From assembly GCF_034259105.1 (NCBI RefSeq), contig NZ_CP139478.1, forward strand, positions 1 to 64,000: a DNA stretch of 64,000 nucleotides, read 5' to 3'. Position 1 is the first letter of the stretch. Every line of letters starts with the position of its first letter. Below are positions 2,809 through 43,727 of the stretch, in pieces. The notes beneath the pieces were generated by a model. That model had not been told where the DNA came from, did not search any database, and saw nothing but the letters and a program-made list of their open reading frames with translations. Both the position numbers and the translations under genes were made by a program. Source of the stretch: Limosilactobacillus reuteri (GTDB lineage Bacteria; Bacillota; Bacilli; Lactobacillales; Lactobacillaceae).

Positions 2809-4718
2809 GTGCGCCCGGCATGGGTATTAGCTAGGTGGTGAAAGTCCGCTATGGGCCGTAGTAGTCGGAACCATGAGCTGAGGACAAGGGTGTCCACCGT
2901 GAGGTGGAATCTGAAGGAAGTCTAAGGCAAAGTACTGCATCGATGAACAAGAAGTAGCTATAAGGCTGGAATTAACTGGATAAGGCTGCTAGACAAGTTG
3001 AAGTCCAATACTACTCGAAGTTGGTCTCAGTAAAGCTAACGATGACATGGTACGAAAGCTAATATTCTTACCCGGGGAGATCTGGCCTACACGTTTCCGA
3101 CAAGAGGAATAAGTTTAATTTCCACAGAAACAAGCGGTGCAGTGATGCAGTGTTGAGTAAGCCAGAAGTCAGCCGAGGTCATAGTAGTTTGAATAATCAG
3201 ATGAAGGACTGAACGACAATAACTTGTAACTTATATCGGAGGTGTAATCAGGTGCGACAATCGCAGAAAACAGAACAACAAGCTGACCGCTTGTCGAGGA
3301 TAGGTTTGGAAAACCGAAAGTACACAAGGGCGCGTAGTACCGGTTATGGTGAAGGTAAAGGTATGAGTGTCACTATCCAAGACCTGGTCTTGGATCGCAA
3401 TAACCTTAATCAGGCTTATTTGCGAGTTAAGAGAAATAAAGGAGCAGCAGGCGTTGACGATATGACAGTCAATGACCTTCTGCCATATCTCAGAGAAAAT
3501 AAGACGGAACTGATCGCTAGTTTGCGTGAGGGCAAGTATAAACCAGCTCCAGTCAAACGGGTAGAAATTCCGAAGCCTAATGGTGGAGTAAGAAGACTTG
3601 GAATACCAACGGTGGTGGACCGAATGGTTCAACAAGCTGTAGCCCAAATTCTTACGCCTATCTTTGAGCGTATTTTCTCTGATAATAGCTTTGGCTTCCG
3701 TCCCCACCGTGGGGCCCATGACGCTATTTCAAAAGTAGTAGATCTTTATAATCAAGGTTATCGAAGAGTTGTCGACTTAGACCTAAAAGCCTATTTTGAT
3801 AACGTTAATCATGACTTGATGATTAAGTATCTCCAACAATATATTGATGACCCATGGACACTAAGACTCATTCGTAAGTTTCTAACTAGCGGAGTCTTAG
3901 ACCATGGGCTTTTCGCTAAGAGTGAAAAAGGAACCCCACAAGGAGGGCCATTGTCACCACTACTGGCGAACATCTATCTAAATGAGTTGGACGAAGAGTT
4001 GACTAGACGTGGTCACCACTTTGTGCGCTATGCGGATGATTGTAACATCTATGTTAAAAGTCAACGAGCCGGAGAACGAGTAATGCGAAGCATTACCCAG
4101 TTTCTAGAAAAGCGCTTGAAAGTTAAAGTGAACCCAGATAAAACCAAAGTCGGTAGCCCGCTACGGTTGAAGTTTCTTGGCTTTTCGTTGGGTGTAGACC
4201 ACAATGGGGCCTACGCCCGTCCAGCTAAACAATCGCAACAACGAGTAAAGAAAGCACTGAAGTTATTAACTAAACGTAATCGTGGAATATCTCTGACAAG
4301 AATGTTTGAAGAAATTCATCGAAAAATGCGTGGGTGGCTTCAGTACTACTCAATTGGGAAACTAACTAACTTTATTCAACGCCTTGACAAGTGGTTGAGG
4401 GTCCGAATAAGGCAGTATATTTGGAAGCAATGGAAAAAGTTTAAAACTAAGGTAACTAACTTACAGAAGTTGGGGCTGCCCCAGCATGATGCATATGTCT
4501 TCGCTAGTACCCGAAAGGGCTACTGGCGAACTGCACATAGTAAGACCTTGAGCTATTCTCTAACTAATAGAAAACTGGAACAACTCGGACTTATGAATAT
4601 GTCCAAGACGCTCCAGTCAATTCAATGTGATTAAGTTGTCGAACCGCCGTATACGGAACCGTACGTACGGTGGTGTGAGAGGTCGATAATTGAACTAATC
4701 AATTATCTCCTACTCGAT
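2809..4718 (+). mobile_element. group II intron, IIC-like, inserted behind the dnaN terminator
   Basis: The RNA begins GTGCGCCCGGCATGGGT, close to the 5' end of the well-studied IIC intron of Oceanobacillus iheyensis, including the later GTGTCC and GGAATCTGAAGGAAG segments of domain I. A reverse transcriptase/maturase is encoded at 3252-4634. Domain V is visible as a hairpin at 4640-4682 (CCGCCGTATACG / CGTACGTACGGTGG) and domain VI as TCGATAATTGA with a matching 3' arm. The 3' end is placed at about 4718 (CTACTCGAT). IIC introns are known to insert just downstream of intrinsic terminator hairpins, exactly the position here. The 2742-3251 stretch is terminator plus intron RNA with no other gene. 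Confidence 0.9.
3252..4634 (+). CDS. ltrA: group II intron reverse transcriptase/maturase
   Basis: This protein splices and mobilises its host intron. The 460 residues carry the reverse-transcriptase fingers/palm with GTPQGGPLSPLLANIYLNEL and the catalytic YADD box. A maturase (X/GIIM) domain follows, with the motif RGWLQYYSIG. No C-terminal HNH endonuclease domain is visible, which fits the class C type. The GTG start at 3252 has GGAGGTG 7-8 bases upstream. The reading frame is intact, so the intron may be active. It lies within the intron RNA, in domain IV as usual. Confidence 0.95.
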   Translation: MRQSQKTEQQADRLSRIGLENRKYTRARSTGYGEGKGMSVTIQDLVLDRNNLNQAYLRVKRNKGAAGVDDMTVNDLLPYLRENKTELIASLREGKYKPAPVKRVEIPKPNGGVRRLGIPTVVDRMVQQAVAQILTPIFERIFSDNSFGFRPHRGAHDAISKVVDLYNQGYRRVVDLDLKAYFDNVNHDLMIKYLQQYIDDPWTLRLIRKFLTSGVLDHGLFAKSEKGTPQGGPLSPLLANIYLNELDEELTRRGHHFVRYADDCNIYVKSQRAGERVMRSITQFLEKRLKVKVNPDKTKVGSPLRLKFLGFSLGVDHNGAYARPAKQSQQRVKKALKLLTKRNRGISLTRMFEEIHRKMRGWLQYYSIGKLTNFIQRLDKWLRVRIRQYIWKQWKKFKTKVTNLQKLGLPQHDAYVFASTRKGYWRTAHSKTLSYSLTNRKLEQLGLMNMSKTLQSIQCD

Positions 4719-36329: not shown

Positions 36330-36377
36330 ATGAGCTATCAAACTTTACAATTAAATCATAGTTGGCAAAGCCGGTAA
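36330..36377 (+). CDS. 15-codon leader peptide with a Trp codon
   Basis: MSYQTLQLNHSWQSR, with AGAGGAG (36315-36321) 8 bases upstream, a TGG codon at position 12 and a TAA at 36375. It is followed immediately by pairing segments and an intrinsic terminator ahead of a TrpX-like gene. The arrangement fits a translated sensor for Trp supply. One Trp codon is fewer than in classic trp leaders, so this is a hypothesis. Confidence 0.6.
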   Translation: MSYQTLQLNHSWQSR

Positions 36378-36378
36378 C

Positions 36379-36492
36379 TCAGGGATAGCTGTAGTACAGA
36401 TATGACCTGGGTTTATTCACAGATTATATCTGTACTGGCTGCTTTATCATGTACAAATAAGGGCCTGTACGGATTCCACGTACGGGCTTTTT
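36379..36492 (+). promoter_or_regulatory. candidate transcription attenuator
   Basis: The hairpin AGTACAGATAT (36393-36403) with ATATCTGTACT (36426-36436) is followed by the terminator GCCTGTACG (36463-36471) with CGTACGGGC (36479-36487) and TTTTT. GTACAG at 36394-36399 can instead pair with CTGTAC at 36465-36470, which would break the terminator. CTCAGG (36379) can also pair with CCTGGG (36405), overlapping the first hairpin. No T-box core sequence is present. The 36257-36564 gap holds only this leader region. Confidence 0.65.
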
Positions 36493-36564
36493 CTATTCCA
36501 CTGGATAAATAGTGGGAGTTCCGAAACGTGGAGTTCCTTTTTATTTTGAAAGGTGGAGATAGGG

Positions 36565-37556
36565 ATGAAACGAATTATGGGCTATATTGTTATTGGAATT
36601 GTTGTGATTGGTGGTTATTTTGGACTTTTAAGGCTTCATCAACAGACAACAAAGCCAGTGGTAGGAATTTTAACGATGATGCATCATCCAACATTAGATC
36701 AGATTCAAAAGGGGGTCGTTGTCGGATTAGCAGAAGAAGGATACCGAAACGGCAAGAATATCAAAATTGAATACCAGAATGCCAATGGTGATCAGGGAAA
36801 TTTAAATACTATGGCAAATAAATTAGTGAATGATCATGCGAAAGTAGTCGTTGGTATTACCACCCCAGCTTGCCAAGCACTTGCTAATGCGACAAAGGAT
36901 ATTCCAATTGTAATGGGGGAATTGGTGATCCGGTTGGTGCCGGCTTAGTAAAGAATGAAAAACACCCAGAAGGAAACGTTACAGGGGTTCATGATGTAAA
37001 TCCAAGTGAACAGCAGATTGCCTTAGTAAAGAAATTTATACCAAACATAAAGACCCTGGGAGTAATCTACACATCGAGCGATACCTCTTCTGAAAGTCAG
37101 TACCGAACAATGGTAAAAGCAGCGCATAAATTACATGTAAACTTAAAAACTTATACAATTGCGAATGCTAATGCTAATGAACTTAATCAGACTTCACAAA
37201 CAATGTTGAGTAAAGTAGACGCGGTTATTGTTCCTAGTGACAATACAATTGCTGGATCAATGGGAGTATTGGTGAAAAATGCAGATGCGGTCAATAAACC
37301 TGTTTTCCCGAGTGCTGATACAATGGTAAAAGATGGTGGAGTAGCTTCGATTAGTCTTAGCCAGTACGGGCAAGGAAAAGTAGCCGGAAAAATGGCAGCA
37401 CGTATTTTGAAAGGTGAAAAACCAGGACAGATGGCAGTTAATAATTACCATCATGGAGAACCGGTTCTTAATTTAAAGCAGGCACGTAAGTTAGGAATAA
37501 AAGTTCCAGCAGATTTTCAACGAGAAGCAGAACAACATGGAACCGTCTTTAGGTAA
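36565..37556 (+). pseudogene. TrpX-like ABC transporter substrate-binding protein, frameshifted
   Basis: The ATG at 36565 follows AAGGTGG. The product begins MKRIMGYIVIGIVVIGGYFG (a membrane anchor without a lipobox Cys) and continues as an ABC_sub_bind-type protein (VVGILTMMHHPTLDQIQKGV). Near 36919 one base appears missing. The frame then ends at TAG 36948, whereas the next frame continues with GDPVGAGLVKNEKHPEGNVTG to 37556. This family includes tryptophan-type binding proteins. No permease or ATPase gene follows. It could be a real pseudogene or a sequencing error at a G-run. Confidence 0.8.
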
Positions 37557-40566: not shown

Positions 40567-40995
40567 CTAATCAACTTTTACAAATCCATCTTGAACAAAT
40601 TTTGTTCCGTAAGTTAGGGTGTTTTCCACGGGACACTTTGCGGCAACGTCAGCGAGGAACTTCTTGATGTCTTCATCAGACTCGCTGCTGCGAAGGTGTG
40701 GTTGGTAACGGATCTCAGTAAATTTACGAACATTCTTACCATCAGCAACATCTTCACGACCAAGATCACCCTCGATTGTTACCCAAAAAGCTCGTAAATC
40801 AAAGTTACGTTTTTTAGCTAATGCTTGGGCAGTGATTGCCTGGCAGGCACCAAATGATGCAAGGAGAATTTCTACTGGATTCATCCCCGTATTTGTACTT
40901 TCTGGTTCATCAAATGTAATTTCAAAGCCACGCGTACTGGCTGAAACCTGCATTCCCGTTGTTGTCTTAGTTGCTGTTACTTTATATTTACTCAT
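40567..40995 (-). CDS. OsmC/Ohr-family protein
   Basis: The 142-residue protein begins MSKYKVTATKTTTGMQVSAS. It has the OsmC pattern with NPVEILLASFGACQAITAQALAKK (reactive Cys) and AAKCPVENTL (second Cys). Members reduce organic hydroperoxides. AAGGAGGG precedes this ATG, so the 18-residue N-terminal extension of the open frame is rejected. It is the third gene of the operon behind the aromatic leader. Confidence 0.88.
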   Translation of the reverse strand: MSKYKVTATKTTTGMQVSASTRGFEITFDEPESTNTGMNPVEILLASFGACQAITAQALAKKRNFDLRAFWVTIEGDLGREDVADGKNVRKFTEIRYQPHLRSSESDEDIKKFLADVAAKCPVENTLTYGTKFVQDGFVKVD

Positions 40996-41062
40996 AGCCG
41001 TTCCCTCCTTTAATACCCATAGTGTAATCGAGACGATACTTTTGGTCAATGAGGGTGCTCAA

Positions 41063-42058
41063 TTATAAGGTGATTTCATGTGGTGATTTTTCGCCATTAA
41101 GGATTGTCATCACATCATCAAGTGAAATATCCACCATGTTTTTGACAGCTAAATTAGTAAAGAAGGCAATGTGGGGAGTAAGAATGACATTATCCATTTC
41201 GTGTAATTCTTTAACAAGCGGCTGATCGTCAAGCCCTTTTTCTCGGCGATTTGTGGCCGCCACCGTTTCTTCACCTTCAAAAGTGTCAAGGGCGGCCGCT
41301 GCAATTGTTCCTTTTTTAAGGGCCGCAACTAAATCAGCTGTATTAACGACTGGACCACGGCTAGCATTAACCAAACCGGCAGTTGGTTTCATCATTGCAA
41401 AGTCGTTAGCAGTTAACAACCCTTTAGAAGTTGGGTTTAAATCGACATGGAGACTAACAATATCGGCTTGCTTTAGTAATTCTTCTTTAGAAACGAACTG
41501 GACAATTTCATCGAGGTCAGTGCGCGGATTCGTGTCATATCCTAGAACGGTAGCACCCAATGCATGAAGAAGTTTTGCCAGGGTTCCGCCAATGCGTCCA
41601 ACACCAATAATCCCAATCGTGGCAGTATGAATTTCAGTCGATTGTTCATCGCTAAACCAGCGGAAGTCATTTTCGGCGACTTGGTGGTCAAAGCGGTAAG
41701 TTTTCCTAAGTAACCGGAAAATCTGCATTAATGCAAACTCGGCGACACTCCGCGGTGAATATGCTGGTACATTGGTCACGACTAGGTCATTTTCGTTAGC
41801 TTTTTTGATGTCGACCATGTCAAATCCAGCTGTCCGCGTTGCAATCTGTTTGAGCCCATTGGTATGGAGCTTTTCATAAATATCAGCCGGAACTTTACTA
41901 CGTTGCTGAATCACGAGTCCATCAACATCGACCGTTAATTCAACAGCATCGTCAATCAATTTCGGCGTTGTGATGATTTCGATATTGTGTTCTTTTGCGT
42001 ATTCGTTAATGGCGGTTTGTTCATCGTCCCGCACACTAGTCATCAAGATTTTTGTCAT
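41063..42058 (-). CDS. D-2-hydroxyacid dehydrogenase (D-lactate/D-hydroxyisocaproate type)
   Basis: The 331-residue NAD-dependent enzyme has GIIGVGRIGG (about 152). The active-site Arg lies in NASRGPVV (about 235), Glu in TFEGEE (about 263) and His in TPHIAFF (about 296). Such enzymes reduce 2-keto acids to D-2-hydroxy acids. The start is one base after the aminotransferase stop, with AAGGAG at the junction. Together the pair could turn aromatic amino acids into aryl-lactates such as phenyllactate or indolelactate. That substrate assignment is inferred from the leader peptide, not from the enzyme sequence. Confidence 0.92.
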   Translation of the reverse strand: MTKILMTSVRDDEQTAINEYAKEHNIEIITTPKLIDDAVELTVDVDGLVIQQRSKVPADIYEKLHTNGLKQIATRTAGFDMVDIKKANENDLVVTNVPAYSPRSVAEFALMQIFRLLRKTYRFDHQVAENDFRWFSDEQSTEIHTATIGIIGVGRIGGTLAKLLHALGATVLGYDTNPRTDLDEIVQFVSKEELLKQADIVSLHVDLNPTSKGLLTANDFAMMKPTAGLVNASRGPVVNTADLVAALKKGTIAAAALDTFEGEETVAATNRREKGLDDQPLVKELHEMDNVILTPHIAFFTNLAVKNMVDISLDDVMTILNGEKSPHEITL

Positions 42059-42059
42059 G

Positions 42060-43247
42060 TTAATTCTCCTTGTTAATGAAGGATGCAATGTTATCAAGAG
42101 CTCCGGTTAGATTTTCCATACTGGTTGCGTAACTAATTCGAACATATCCTTGGCCGCCAGCTCCAAAGAAGGAACCAGGAATCACAGCAACTTTTCCTTC
42201 ATTGGCAAGATCTGTCGCAAATTTAAGGTCATCATTACCATATTGTTCAGGAATCTTGGCAAATACGTAGAAGGCTCCTTGGGGATTAATCAGCTCGAAC
42301 CCTAATTTTTGGAGGCTATTAACAACAAAATCTCGTCGTTGCTCATAGGCATTTTTCATTTCTTGAGTAGCTGTTTTTCCTTCGTTAGTACCAAATGCGG
42401 CTACTGCAGCGGCCATTGCTGGATTAGAAGCCGCGGTTACTAACATCGCGTGAATGGCACTGACTGATTTCATCAATTCTTGCGGCCCAGCGATAAAACC
42501 AATTCGGTAACCAGTCATTGCATGTGATTTTGAGGCACCATTTAAAATTAGCGTTTGTTCGGGGATGGAATTAGCAATTGAAGTATGAGTAGCCCCGTAA
42601 ACAAGTTCAGAGTAAATCTCATCGGCAATTACAATCAGGTTAGTTGATTTAACTGTATCGGCTAGTGCTTTAATTTGGTCTTGGGTGTAAGTAACACCAG
42701 TTGGGTTGGAGGGGTAGTTAAGAACTAGTCCTTTTGCGTTAGGATGTTCTTCTAGTACGCTTTGGAGTCTTGCGGGTGTGAGAACAAAATCATCGCTGCT
42801 TGTATCAACTTCGATCGGAATCCCACCCAGAATCTTTGTGACAGCCATGTAGAAGGGGAAAGTTGGGGTTGGAATGATAATTTCATCGCCAGGATTAATA
42901 ATAGTAGAAAGAGAAGCGAAAATTCCCTCTGTTGCACCAACTGTAACAGCAATTTCGTTTTCCGGATCGTATTCCAGCTCGTAACGATCTTGCATGAAGT
43001 GAGCGATTGCTTGGCGTAGTGCTAAGGTCCCATTTCCCGGAGCATAGTGTGAATCATTGGCATTGATGCTATCGATTGCGGCCTGCTTCATTGCGGCTGG
43101 CACATTAAAGTCTGGTTCACCTAATGTTAGTTTAATGATGCCAGGGATTGCGCTGACTTGGTAATCAAATTCGCGGATCCCGCCAGGAGTGAGTTTAGCG
43201 AAATTATTGTTAAGACGATTGAGAATTTCTTTTTTAGTAGTTGGCAT
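42060..43247 (-). CDS. class I PLP-dependent aminotransferase
   Basis: The 395-residue protein of the PatA/AraT-like fold-type I group has a PLP lysine in LNGASKSHAMTGYRIGF (about 238), YPSNPTGVT, and the C-terminal Arg in GQGYVRISYATS. It transfers an amino group to a keto acid. GGAGG precedes the ATG. The leader ORF with Tyr-Val-Phe-Trp-Phe and a terminator lie 165-235 bases upstream, so aromatic amino acids are the likely signals and possibly the substrates. A methionine or aspartate specificity cannot be excluded. Confidence 0.92.
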   Translation of the reverse strand: MPTTKKEILNRLNNNFAKLTPGGIREFDYQVSAIPGIIKLTLGEPDFNVPAAMKQAAIDSINANDSHYAPGNGTLALRQAIAHFMQDRYELEYDPENEIAVTVGATEGIFASLSTIINPGDEIIIPTPTFPFYMAVTKILGGIPIEVDTSSDDFVLTPARLQSVLEEHPNAKGLVLNYPSNPTGVTYTQDQIKALADTVKSTNLIVIADEIYSELVYGATHTSIANSIPEQTLILNGASKSHAMTGYRIGFIAGPQELMKSVSAIHAMLVTAASNPAMAAAVAAFGTNEGKTATQEMKNAYEQRRDFVVNSLQKLGFELINPQGAFYVFAKIPEQYGNDDLKFATDLANEGKVAVIPGSFFGAGGQGYVRISYATSMENLTGALDNIASFINKEN

Positions 43248-43284
43248 GATAAATTCCTCCTATATAATATGTAGATTTAGAAAA

Positions 43285-43326
43285 AAGAAGCCCTGAATGC
43301 TATAGGAAAAACATCCAGGGCTTCTT
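43285..43326 (-). terminator. attenuator terminator of the aminotransferase operon
   Basis: On the minus strand AAGAAGCCCTGGATG pairs with CATTCAGGGCTTCTT, followed by TTTT. It lies between the leader ORF and the aminotransferase gene, so transcription must pass it to express the operon. Confidence 0.9.
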
Positions 43327-43437
43327 GATCAGATTGGAATGAGTATAAAAGAGGCTCTCGGATGTTTGGGGGTCATCCGGGAACATCACAATGATAAAAT
43401 CACTGCTGGTTAGCGGACGGTAATCGCGCTAAACCAG
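43327..43437 (-). promoter_or_regulatory. chain of leader hairpins competing with the terminator
   Basis: On the minus strand CTGGTTTAGCG (43437-43427, covering the Trp-Phe-Ser-Ala codons) pairs with CGCTAACCAG (43415-43406, covering the last codon and stop). Next come CAGTGAT/ATCATTG (43405-43389) and CGGATG/CATCCG (43379-43359). CATCC of the last hairpin can alternatively pair with GGATG in the 5' arm of the terminator. A ribosome stalled on the aromatic codons would open the first helix. Confidence 0.65.
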
Positions 43438-43481
43438 AAGACATACGCTTGATTCAAGTGAATTGTCGCAGTGCACATCAT
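43410..43481 (-). CDS. leader peptide rich in aromatic codons
   Basis: The 23-codon ORF is MMCTATIHLNQAYVFWFSAI followed by TVR and TAA. AAGGAGG lies 5 bases before the first ATG (43487-43493 on the plus strand). The codons TAT, TTC, TGG and TTT at positions 13, 15, 16 and 17 lie just upstream of a helix and a terminator. This is the classic shape of a ribosome-mediated attenuator, here sensing Tyr, Phe and Trp. The 43248-43753 gap holds this leader, its promoter and the promoter of the HTH gene. Confidence 0.8.
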   Translation of the reverse strand: MMCTATIHLNQAYVFWFSAITVR

Positions 43482-43514
43482 TGTGTCCTCCTTTTGATTA
43501 ACTGATTATTAATT

Positions 43515-43542
43515 ATTCTAATTTTTTTTTAATTTTTGTCAA
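43515..43542 (-). promoter_or_regulatory. promoter of the aromatic leader
   Basis: On the minus strand TTGACA (43542-43537), a 16-base A/T spacer and TAGAAT (43520-43515) form a near-consensus promoter about 30 bases before the leader start codon. Confidence 0.8.
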
Positions 43543-43699
43543 GAGTTGATTGAGAAAAATTATTAATTACAAAATTATTTATTGATTACAAATGTAAATA
43601 TAAAAAAAGTGTGAAAATGTTTGTGATTATTAATTCGCCTTTAATTTAATATTAGATTTATATTCTACAATTTTTTTTATTTTTTTCGTGTCTTTTTTG

Positions 43700-43727
43700 T
43701 TGTCTTACTCCACAAATATGATATAAT
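43700..43727 (+). promoter_or_regulatory. promoter of the small HTH gene
   Basis: TTGTCT, a 16-base spacer and TATAAT, 26 bases before the start codon. Confidence 0.7.

Follow-up and report, generated by a model that had tools for sequence, protein, structure and literature searches.

A conserved aromatic leader peptide and a putative transcription attenuator ahead of an aminotransferase-hydroxyacid dehydrogenase operon in Limosilactobacillus reuteri and related Lactobacillaceae

The DNA analysed here (the window) is a stretch of 64,000 nucleotides from Limosilactobacillus reuteri (contig NZ_CP139478.1, positions 1 to 64,000). Its minus strand carries an araT-like aminotransferase gene and an fldH-like D-2-hydroxyacid dehydrogenase gene, which starts 2 bases past the aminotransferase gene; an OsmC-like gene comes next, here and in part of the relatives (Table 1). 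The region ahead of these genes had been described, in a sequence-only reading, as a promoter, a Shine-Dalgarno (SD) sequence, a short open reading frame (ORF) with a run of aromatic codons, several hairpins and a terminator, and all of these elements were recovered in place. Sites resembling the promoter are found 8 times in the surrounding 901-base region against 4.0 expected, which is weak evidence by itself. The intrinsic terminator (43326-43285, minus strand) has 17 pairs followed by a T run and lies ahead of the structural genes, with a further SD and the aminotransferase start at 43247 downstream of it; 2 terminator-like sites were found in the scanned region against 0.5 expected. One hairpin lies over the Phe-Trp-Phe codons and a second one after the leader ORF, and in the minimum free energy structures of the L. 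reuteri group the leader start region also pairs with the stretch past the first hairpin. The fold of the 258-nt leader is computed at -86.7 kcal/mol, against -53.8 kcal/mol for shuffled sequences (z -7.2, 0 of 200 shuffles as good).

Table 1. Leader elements and downstream genes of the window, with the evidence behind each assignment
Feature	Positions	Strand	Evidence
Promoter-like site TTGACA-16-TAGAAT	43515..43542	-	Consensus scan, 11/12 matches
Shine-Dalgarno AGGAGG of leader ORF	43487..43492	-	Sequence
Leader peptide ORF, 23 codons, MMCTATIHLNQAYVFWFSAITVR	43410..43481	-	Open frame and conservation
Aromatic codons Tyr-Val-Phe-Trp-Phe, putative stall site	43431..43445	-	Sequence and representatives
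Segment 1, pairs with 2, within the aromatic codons	43421..43439	-	Native versus cross-species pairing and column count
Segment 2, pairs with 1 or 3	43402..43417	-	Native versus cross-species pairing
Segment 3, pairs with 2 or 4	43372..43395	-	Native versus cross-species pairing and column count
Segment 4, antiterminator, pairs with 3 or 5	43351..43370	-	Fold profiles and native versus cross-species pairing
Segment 5, 5' arm of terminator, pairs with 6 or 4	43310..43326	-	Terminator scan and pairing test
Segment 6, 3' arm of terminator, then T run	43285..43301	-	Terminator scan and pairing test
Class I/II aminotransferase, araT-like	42060..43247	-	PF00155; NCBIfam matches under curated cut-offs
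D-2-hydroxyacid dehydrogenase, fldH-like	41063..42058	-	PF02826 and PF00389
OsmC-like protein, possible third gene	40567..41049	-	Weak NCBIfam match

The closest named relatives of the aminotransferase are those of Limosilactobacillus reuteri (95% identity), L. balticus (94%) and L. agrestis (91%). Of the 46 loci with a leader described below, 38 have the dehydrogenase gene next, in the same orientation; in the other eight it was not found on the available piece, one of these pieces ending inside the aminotransferase gene. Relatives with solved structures include chains named aromatic aminotransferase, D-lactate dehydrogenase and D-2-hydroxyisocaproate dehydrogenase, and the best such match of the aminotransferase is a 'putative amino acid aminotransferase'; aromatic substrates of the pair are putative. 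Adjacent araT and fldH genes of L. reuteri have been described as a likely operon and linked to indole metabolites that act on the host (PMC9685921), and we infer that this pair is the one in the window.

Homologous aminotransferases were collected from 56 genomes (30 loci listed) and from named GTDB contigs (80 of 377 confirmed relatives), giving 110 upstream regions, 94 of them non-identical. The sequence-only reading had named a lack of conservation of the ORF or its aromatic codons in related genomes as a reason to give it up; instead, a short ORF with an aromatic run including Trp is present in 46 of the 94 regions, with a marked dependence on aminotransferase identity (31 of 35 regions at 57.6% or more versus 15 of 59 below, where some regions belong to paralogues such as those at 51% and 47% in the window's own genome). 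The leaders come from Limosilactobacillus, Weissella, Periweissella, Leuconostoc and Furfurilactobacillus, and most relatives have an SD-like word ahead of the ORF. Counted from the first ATG of the frame, the 46 peptides hold 4 to 7 aromatic residues per 18 to 33 residues, and codons for Phe, Tyr and Trp are present in every one. Among 21 representatives, less than 80% identical to each other, the leader frame is open in all, against 5 and 5 for the other two frames. Trp occurs in 21/21, the pattern by which these leaders were picked up itself including Trp, and the position three codons before it is Tyr in 10 and Phe in 11; Phe/Tyr exchanges occur within the aromatic run.

Four regions at or above 57.6% identity lack a pattern leader (L004, L014, L055 and L062). 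For L014 only 116 bases were available. The first pattern scan required Trp and hence missed leaders with Lys at that place, which were later found by a covariance model (see below); this is the case of L055, where the model found one (L132). It should be noted that L132, L139 and L162 are Leuconostoc-type leaders in which Lys replaces Trp (NYYFKYFD, SYYFKYFG and NFYFKYFG, respectively), and they may have lost the sensing of Trp. In L004 (genome G018) the aminotransferase is 96% identical yet the leader is absent: the window's intergenic region is missing there and the aminotransferase gene abuts another ORF on the clp side.

To describe the RNA, six segments were defined from the leader alignment, which covers 40 of the 46 leaders (the near-copies L040, L042, L052, L054, L076 and L080 are absent from both alignments), together with the terminator positions; a terminator was found in 46/46 leaders, the choice in L051 being set by hand. 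Segments were then tested two at a time in the 21 representatives, by setting the duplex energy of partners from one species against that of partners from different species, with 5000 permutations. Native pairing is favoured for all neighbouring segments, with z values of -7.4 (1:2), -5.6 (2:3), -7.2 (3:4), -7.4 (4:5) and -11.4 (5:6), and 0 of 5000 permutations reached the native value in each case. Nine of the ten non-neighbouring pairs (all but 1:6) were tested as well and show no native advantage (z from -1.6 to +1.1), the lowest being 1:3 (z -1.6, 299 of 5000 permutations). As these controls share the same relatedness between species, the simplest reading of the sequence comparison is that of two exclusive folds, a terminator fold with 1:2, 3:4 and 5:6 and an antiterminator fold with 2:3 and 4:5.

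Column counts were applied only to helices 1:2 and 3:4, since the MAFFT alignment misaligns the Leuconostoc terminators and 2:3, 4:5 and 5:6 are thus judged by the native versus cross-species test only. Over 38 distinct rows, 95.3% of cells are paired versus 85.2% in shuffled alignments, covariation is 0.486 versus 0.280 (0 of 500 shuffles), and 55 cells are doubly changed versus 17.5; versions of the structure slid along the alignment give a covariation of at most 0.135, in a comparison that favours the native structure, which was derived from the same alignment. The number of pairs with a double change is not above chance (7 versus 6.1 in shuffles, 160 of 500). Since the ORF and its aromatic codons are conserved between genera, as are the helices, where compensatory changes occur, the leader elements are more than a chance assembly. 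The comparison across lactobacilli that had been proposed with the idea of ribosome-mediated attenuation hence gave both of the signs it was to look for, conserved Tyr/Phe/Trp codons and compensatory helix changes, and the idea itself gains support.

Strong conserved helices would also be expected from a small-molecule riboswitch or a protein-binding leader in which the ORF is incidental, and ORF-bearing motifs have earlier been listed among riboswitch candidates (PMC11109978). We consider this very improbable: no Rfam family reaches its gathering score in the leader, matches up to E 10 are chance-like, sub-threshold hits of unrelated families, and neither the preferential opening of the leader frame nor the Phe/Tyr exchanges in its run fit an incidental ORF. 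A T-box sensing uncharged tRNA directly deserves mention, since histidine genes of Lactobacillales are more often under T-boxes than under any other control (PMC9413887). Its probability is negligible here: the window has no T-box hit that reaches the gathering score, and a search of 43200-43700 at E up to 10 gave none either.

Concerning the direction of control, which the sequence-only reading had left open, folds were computed with each codon in turn in the A site, for a transcript reaching as far as the terminator loop; the bases under the ribosome and all RNA 5' of them were masked. This equilibrium model ignores kinetics and pausing. Profiles were computed first for the 46 leaders, where the automatic choice of segment 4 was off in L017, L072, L076, L077 and L080, and then for the 21 representatives, where segment 4 was set from the alignment columns. 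In the latter, the antiterminator helix has a mean probability, P(4:5), of 0.79 when the A site lies in the aromatic run; the means are 0.40 for the codons ahead of it, 0.29 for those past it and the stop, and 0.31 with no ribosome. The value on the run exceeds that on later codons in 19/21 leaders, on earlier codons in 17/21 and without ribosome in 19/21. Other footprints give similar numbers for run, before and after (0.79/0.39/0.34 at 10 nt; 0.75/0.41/0.27 at 16 nt). Some leaders switch sharply, such as L026 in the profiles of the 46, where P(4:5) goes from 0.00 to 0.95-0.97 and back to 0.03. Among the 21 profiles, L018 and L020 show only the fall after the run and L046, L015, L049 and L025 show no switch. 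For the window's leader P(4:5) is 0.87 on the run, 0.24 before it and 0.34 after it, and 0.73 without ribosome, so that, at that stage, efficient termination is not predicted for a leader that is not being translated. The folding model hence supplies a predicted direction: a ribosome on the aromatic codons would favour antitermination, and shortage of charged aromatic tRNA would turn the operon on. Fifteen leaders before genes other than araT (see below) were folded as well; P(4:5) rises on the run and falls after it in L156, L149 and L158, falls after the run in L127-L129, and shows no clear switch in the other nine, L159 being highest at the stop codon.

A covariance model built on segments 1-4 was run on 301 Lactobacillaceae genomes and gave matches at E up to 0.1 in 93 of them, from 25 of 40 genera; these are candidates, not all verified. 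Several sets of matches were inspected, which overlap each other and the 46 leaders (L161 = L053 and L133 = L144, for example) and are not additive. At chosen second sites and lower-scoring matches, 18 of 20 have an aromatic leader, located before aminotransferases (8), transketolase (5), shikimate dehydrogenase (1), amino acid permeases (3) and a PTS_EIIC_2 protein (1). Among further weak matches 16 of 20 have one, 15 before aminotransferases 46 to 51% identical to that of the window and the remaining one, L200, which has no clear SD, before a transketolase gene. For the top loci, all 18 inspected of 30 have a leader, 13 before aminotransferases and 5 before PTS_EIIC_2-like proteins. The transketolase of L163, the PTS_EIIC_2 protein of L165 and the permeases of L166 and L167 were scanned with Pfam, the other genes being named by likeness. 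In an order-wide run over 295 genomes, one of six inspected matches outside the family is genuine and precedes an aminotransferase. An alignment of 42 sequences across the leader types shares only segments 1 and 2.

In G252 the leader heads a complete tkt-aro operon: tkt, aroE, DAHP synthase, aroB, chorismate synthase, EPSP synthase and tyrA, followed by a shikimate kinase with a chorismate mutase domain, a 184-residue protein and aroD. G100 has, by likeness, the same gene order from aroE on. The 184-residue protein (L163:9542-10093, plus strand) looks PDT-like from its start by eye and has no NCBIfam match at 1e-20; within the window's genus 6 of 33 genomes have a relative of it, as does 1 other among 56 in all. 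Several leaders before transketolase or aroE (L149-L152, L158, L159 and L200) show, by eye, a second terminator-like hairpin with a T run, placed between the first terminator and the gene. PTS_EIIC_2 (PF13303) or similar proteins follow aromatic leaders in L165 (5394-6422, minus strand), L127, L128, L129, L134 and L135; this position suggests that these uncharacterised members of the predicted regulon transport an aromatic compound, making them candidate transporters.

Among the features by which an attenuator is recognised, the leader has a short ORF with an SD and regulatory codons, an intrinsic terminator before the structural genes, and terminator and antiterminator folds that exclude each other and show compensatory changes; the controlled genes (aminotransferase, tkt-aro operon, amino acid permease) belong to the metabolism of the amino acids that would be sensed. 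We therefore regard it, with a probability of roughly 0.85, as a ribosome-mediated transcription attenuator of six segments, which senses charged Tyr, Phe and Trp tRNAs jointly and turns its operon on at shortage. When all three charged tRNAs are plentiful, the ribosome would run through the leader, 1:2 would form or the ribosome would cover segment 2, and segment 3 would pair with 4, letting the terminator 5:6 form with the operon off. If one of the three is short, a ribosome stalled on the aromatic codons would cover segment 1, segment 2 would pair with 3 and segment 4, left free, would pair with 5, blocking the terminator and allowing transcription of the aminotransferase and the D-hydroxyacid dehydrogenase. 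Comparison of the genomes establishes the ORF, its codons, the alternative helices and the position of the codons relative to them, and leader translation, stalling and terminator read-through would be expected to follow. The occurrence of aromatic leaders ahead of the tkt-aro operon, permeases and aminotransferases supports induction by starvation, as this is the expected sign there. Against this explanation count the leaderless locus of G018, the representatives whose profiles lack a full switch, the mixed profiles of the non-araT leaders, the high P(4:5) of the window's leader with no ribosome, and the number of doubly changed pairs, which is at chance level.

A further result bears on the sign. 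In BHI medium, 1 mM Trp raised five of six araT mRNAs of L. reuteri (PMC9685921, which in the part consulted does not name the loci); if the window's locus is among them, the rise is opposite to the starvation model and speaks against it. Such Trp-responsive increases would fit a TnaC-type arrest peptide, where a free aromatic amino acid stalls the leader ribosome, as free Trp can in TnaC (PMC8429421), and a catabolic operon is induced when aromatics are abundant. The present operon can be read as catabolic, forming aryl-lactates. We nevertheless find an arrest peptide unlikely, since the residues ahead of the aromatic run seem by eye to vary between genera, which those of an arrest sequence would not, since in most predictions termination wins when the ribosome stays at the stop codon, and since the same leader type heads the biosynthetic aro operon.

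What the attenuated operon would do depends on the physiology of its host. The window's genome has no match to PF00793, PF00800, PF02153 or PF00218 (DAHP synthase, prephenate dehydratase, prephenate dehydrogenase and IGPS, respectively), nor to the short PDT-like protein, whereas the same searches gave matches in 11, 14, 14 and 14 of 14 reference genomes. Judging from these families it probably makes neither Phe, Tyr nor Trp, a divergent enzyme being possible. With such apparent auxotrophy, an aminotransferase induced by starvation helps only in the direction from keto acid to amino acid, which supports salvage. Genomes that encode prephenate dehydratase have the leader as well, and control of the final step of biosynthesis would suit it there. 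PF00800 is found in 2 of 33 genomes of the genus (G014 and G032, few genomes, with a best aminotransferase match of only 50%), and none of the 35 genomes that the model matches strongly (E <=1e-6, any target) has it. An exclusive link between the leader and loss of prephenate dehydratase was considered and rejected, as eleven genomes with weaker-score leaders have PF00800 (L153, L155, L197, L198, L201, L202, L203, L204, L208, L209 and L216).

The sequence-only reading had proposed that the target genes convert aromatic amino acids to aryl-lactates. The proposed direction fits less well, since the predicted induction by starvation together with the lack of detectable de novo synthesis makes transamination toward the amino acids more likely. 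During starvation keto acids, and perhaps hydroxy acids, would be turned into aromatic amino acids by these enzymes, as last biosynthetic step in prototrophs and as salvage in the window's apparent auxotroph; such salvage is a live, if unproven, possibility. In older work, lactic acid bacteria grew on keto and hydroxy acid analogues of amino acids. An alternative that is less likely than not accepts the leader as real and holds that the operon mainly drains aromatics to aryl-lactates for redox balance, starvation control being left over from a biosynthetic setting. PMC9685921 and PMC10040830 treat adjacent araT and fldH as an indolelactate operon, and such inheritance is plausible given that prototroph-like relatives have leaders; yet genomes in which no aromatic synthesis is detectable, e.g. 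that of the window, have kept the leader intact with its helices and terminator, and losing scarce amino acids would do harm. A possible reading, rather than a probable one, is a joint Tyr/Phe/Trp leader-peptide regulon common in Lactobacillaceae, whose operon in auxotrophic Limosilactobacillus mainly salvages aromatic amino acids from D-aryl-lactates and aryl-pyruvates. If salvage is its role, the supposed indolelactate operon would be a starvation-induced recycling loop, active when aromatic tRNAs are undercharged, in one regulon with the shikimate operon and transporters. If starvation turns the operon on, the expected effect of dietary Trp on it is reversed.

The enterobacterial his attenuator has a six-segment layout. 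The enterobacterial his, pheA and trp attenuators likewise combine a short leader ORF, runs of regulatory codons, exclusive folds and an intrinsic terminator that is read through on stalling (for the general his logic see PMC9413887). The present leader differs in phylum, in carrying codons for three aromatic amino acids in one peptide, and in targets that include an aminotransferase-hydroxyacid dehydrogenase operon. Among Gram-positive bacteria, the leucine-rich attenuator peptide of Staphylococcus aureus ilv-leu (PMC5794164) is also a case of leader-peptide attenuation in a Firmicute, for branched-chain amino acids and other genes; the Corynebacterium ilvB uORF (PMC10272879, PMC11109978) and the His leader peptides of the Bacillus cereus group (PMC9413887, PMC2965389) have the same layout of uORF with regulatory codons, terminator and antiterminator, in other lineages and for other amino acids. 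Leader peptides in Firmicutes were treated as new in 2010 (PMC2965389), and few cases have followed in the literature consulted, whereas the araT type recurs in several genera of Lactobacillaceae. We found no aromatic leader peptide of lactic acid bacteria in the open-licence literature; subscription papers (e.g. Panina et al. 2003, cited in PMC2494555) may describe one. The mechanism class is old; new are its host family, its set of targets and a single leader that would sense three aromatic amino acids.

The window contains another candidate element of Trp control, the Rfam RF04312 trpB motif before trpX (36393-36499, plus strand), a strong riboswitch candidate in PMC11109978. It differs from the araT leader in sequence and layout and has no match in 43200-43700. 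An ORF led by an SD, MSYQTLQLNHSWQSR, lies ahead of it (36330-36499, plus strand, with the motif). Of 31 RF04312 places inspected (L001, L002 and L168-L196), 29 show a short ORF in which Trp is encoded close to the end, often as ...WQSR or WQNWRR; motif and ORF may together form a Trp leader-peptide attenuator or an arrest peptide. The TrpX-like substrate-binding protein behind the motif is split into ORFs 36553-36948 and 37110-37556 (plus strand), each matching one part of the family. Finally, pieces of a group II intron (RF02001, RF01998 and RF00029) are present at 2893-4718 on the plus strand.
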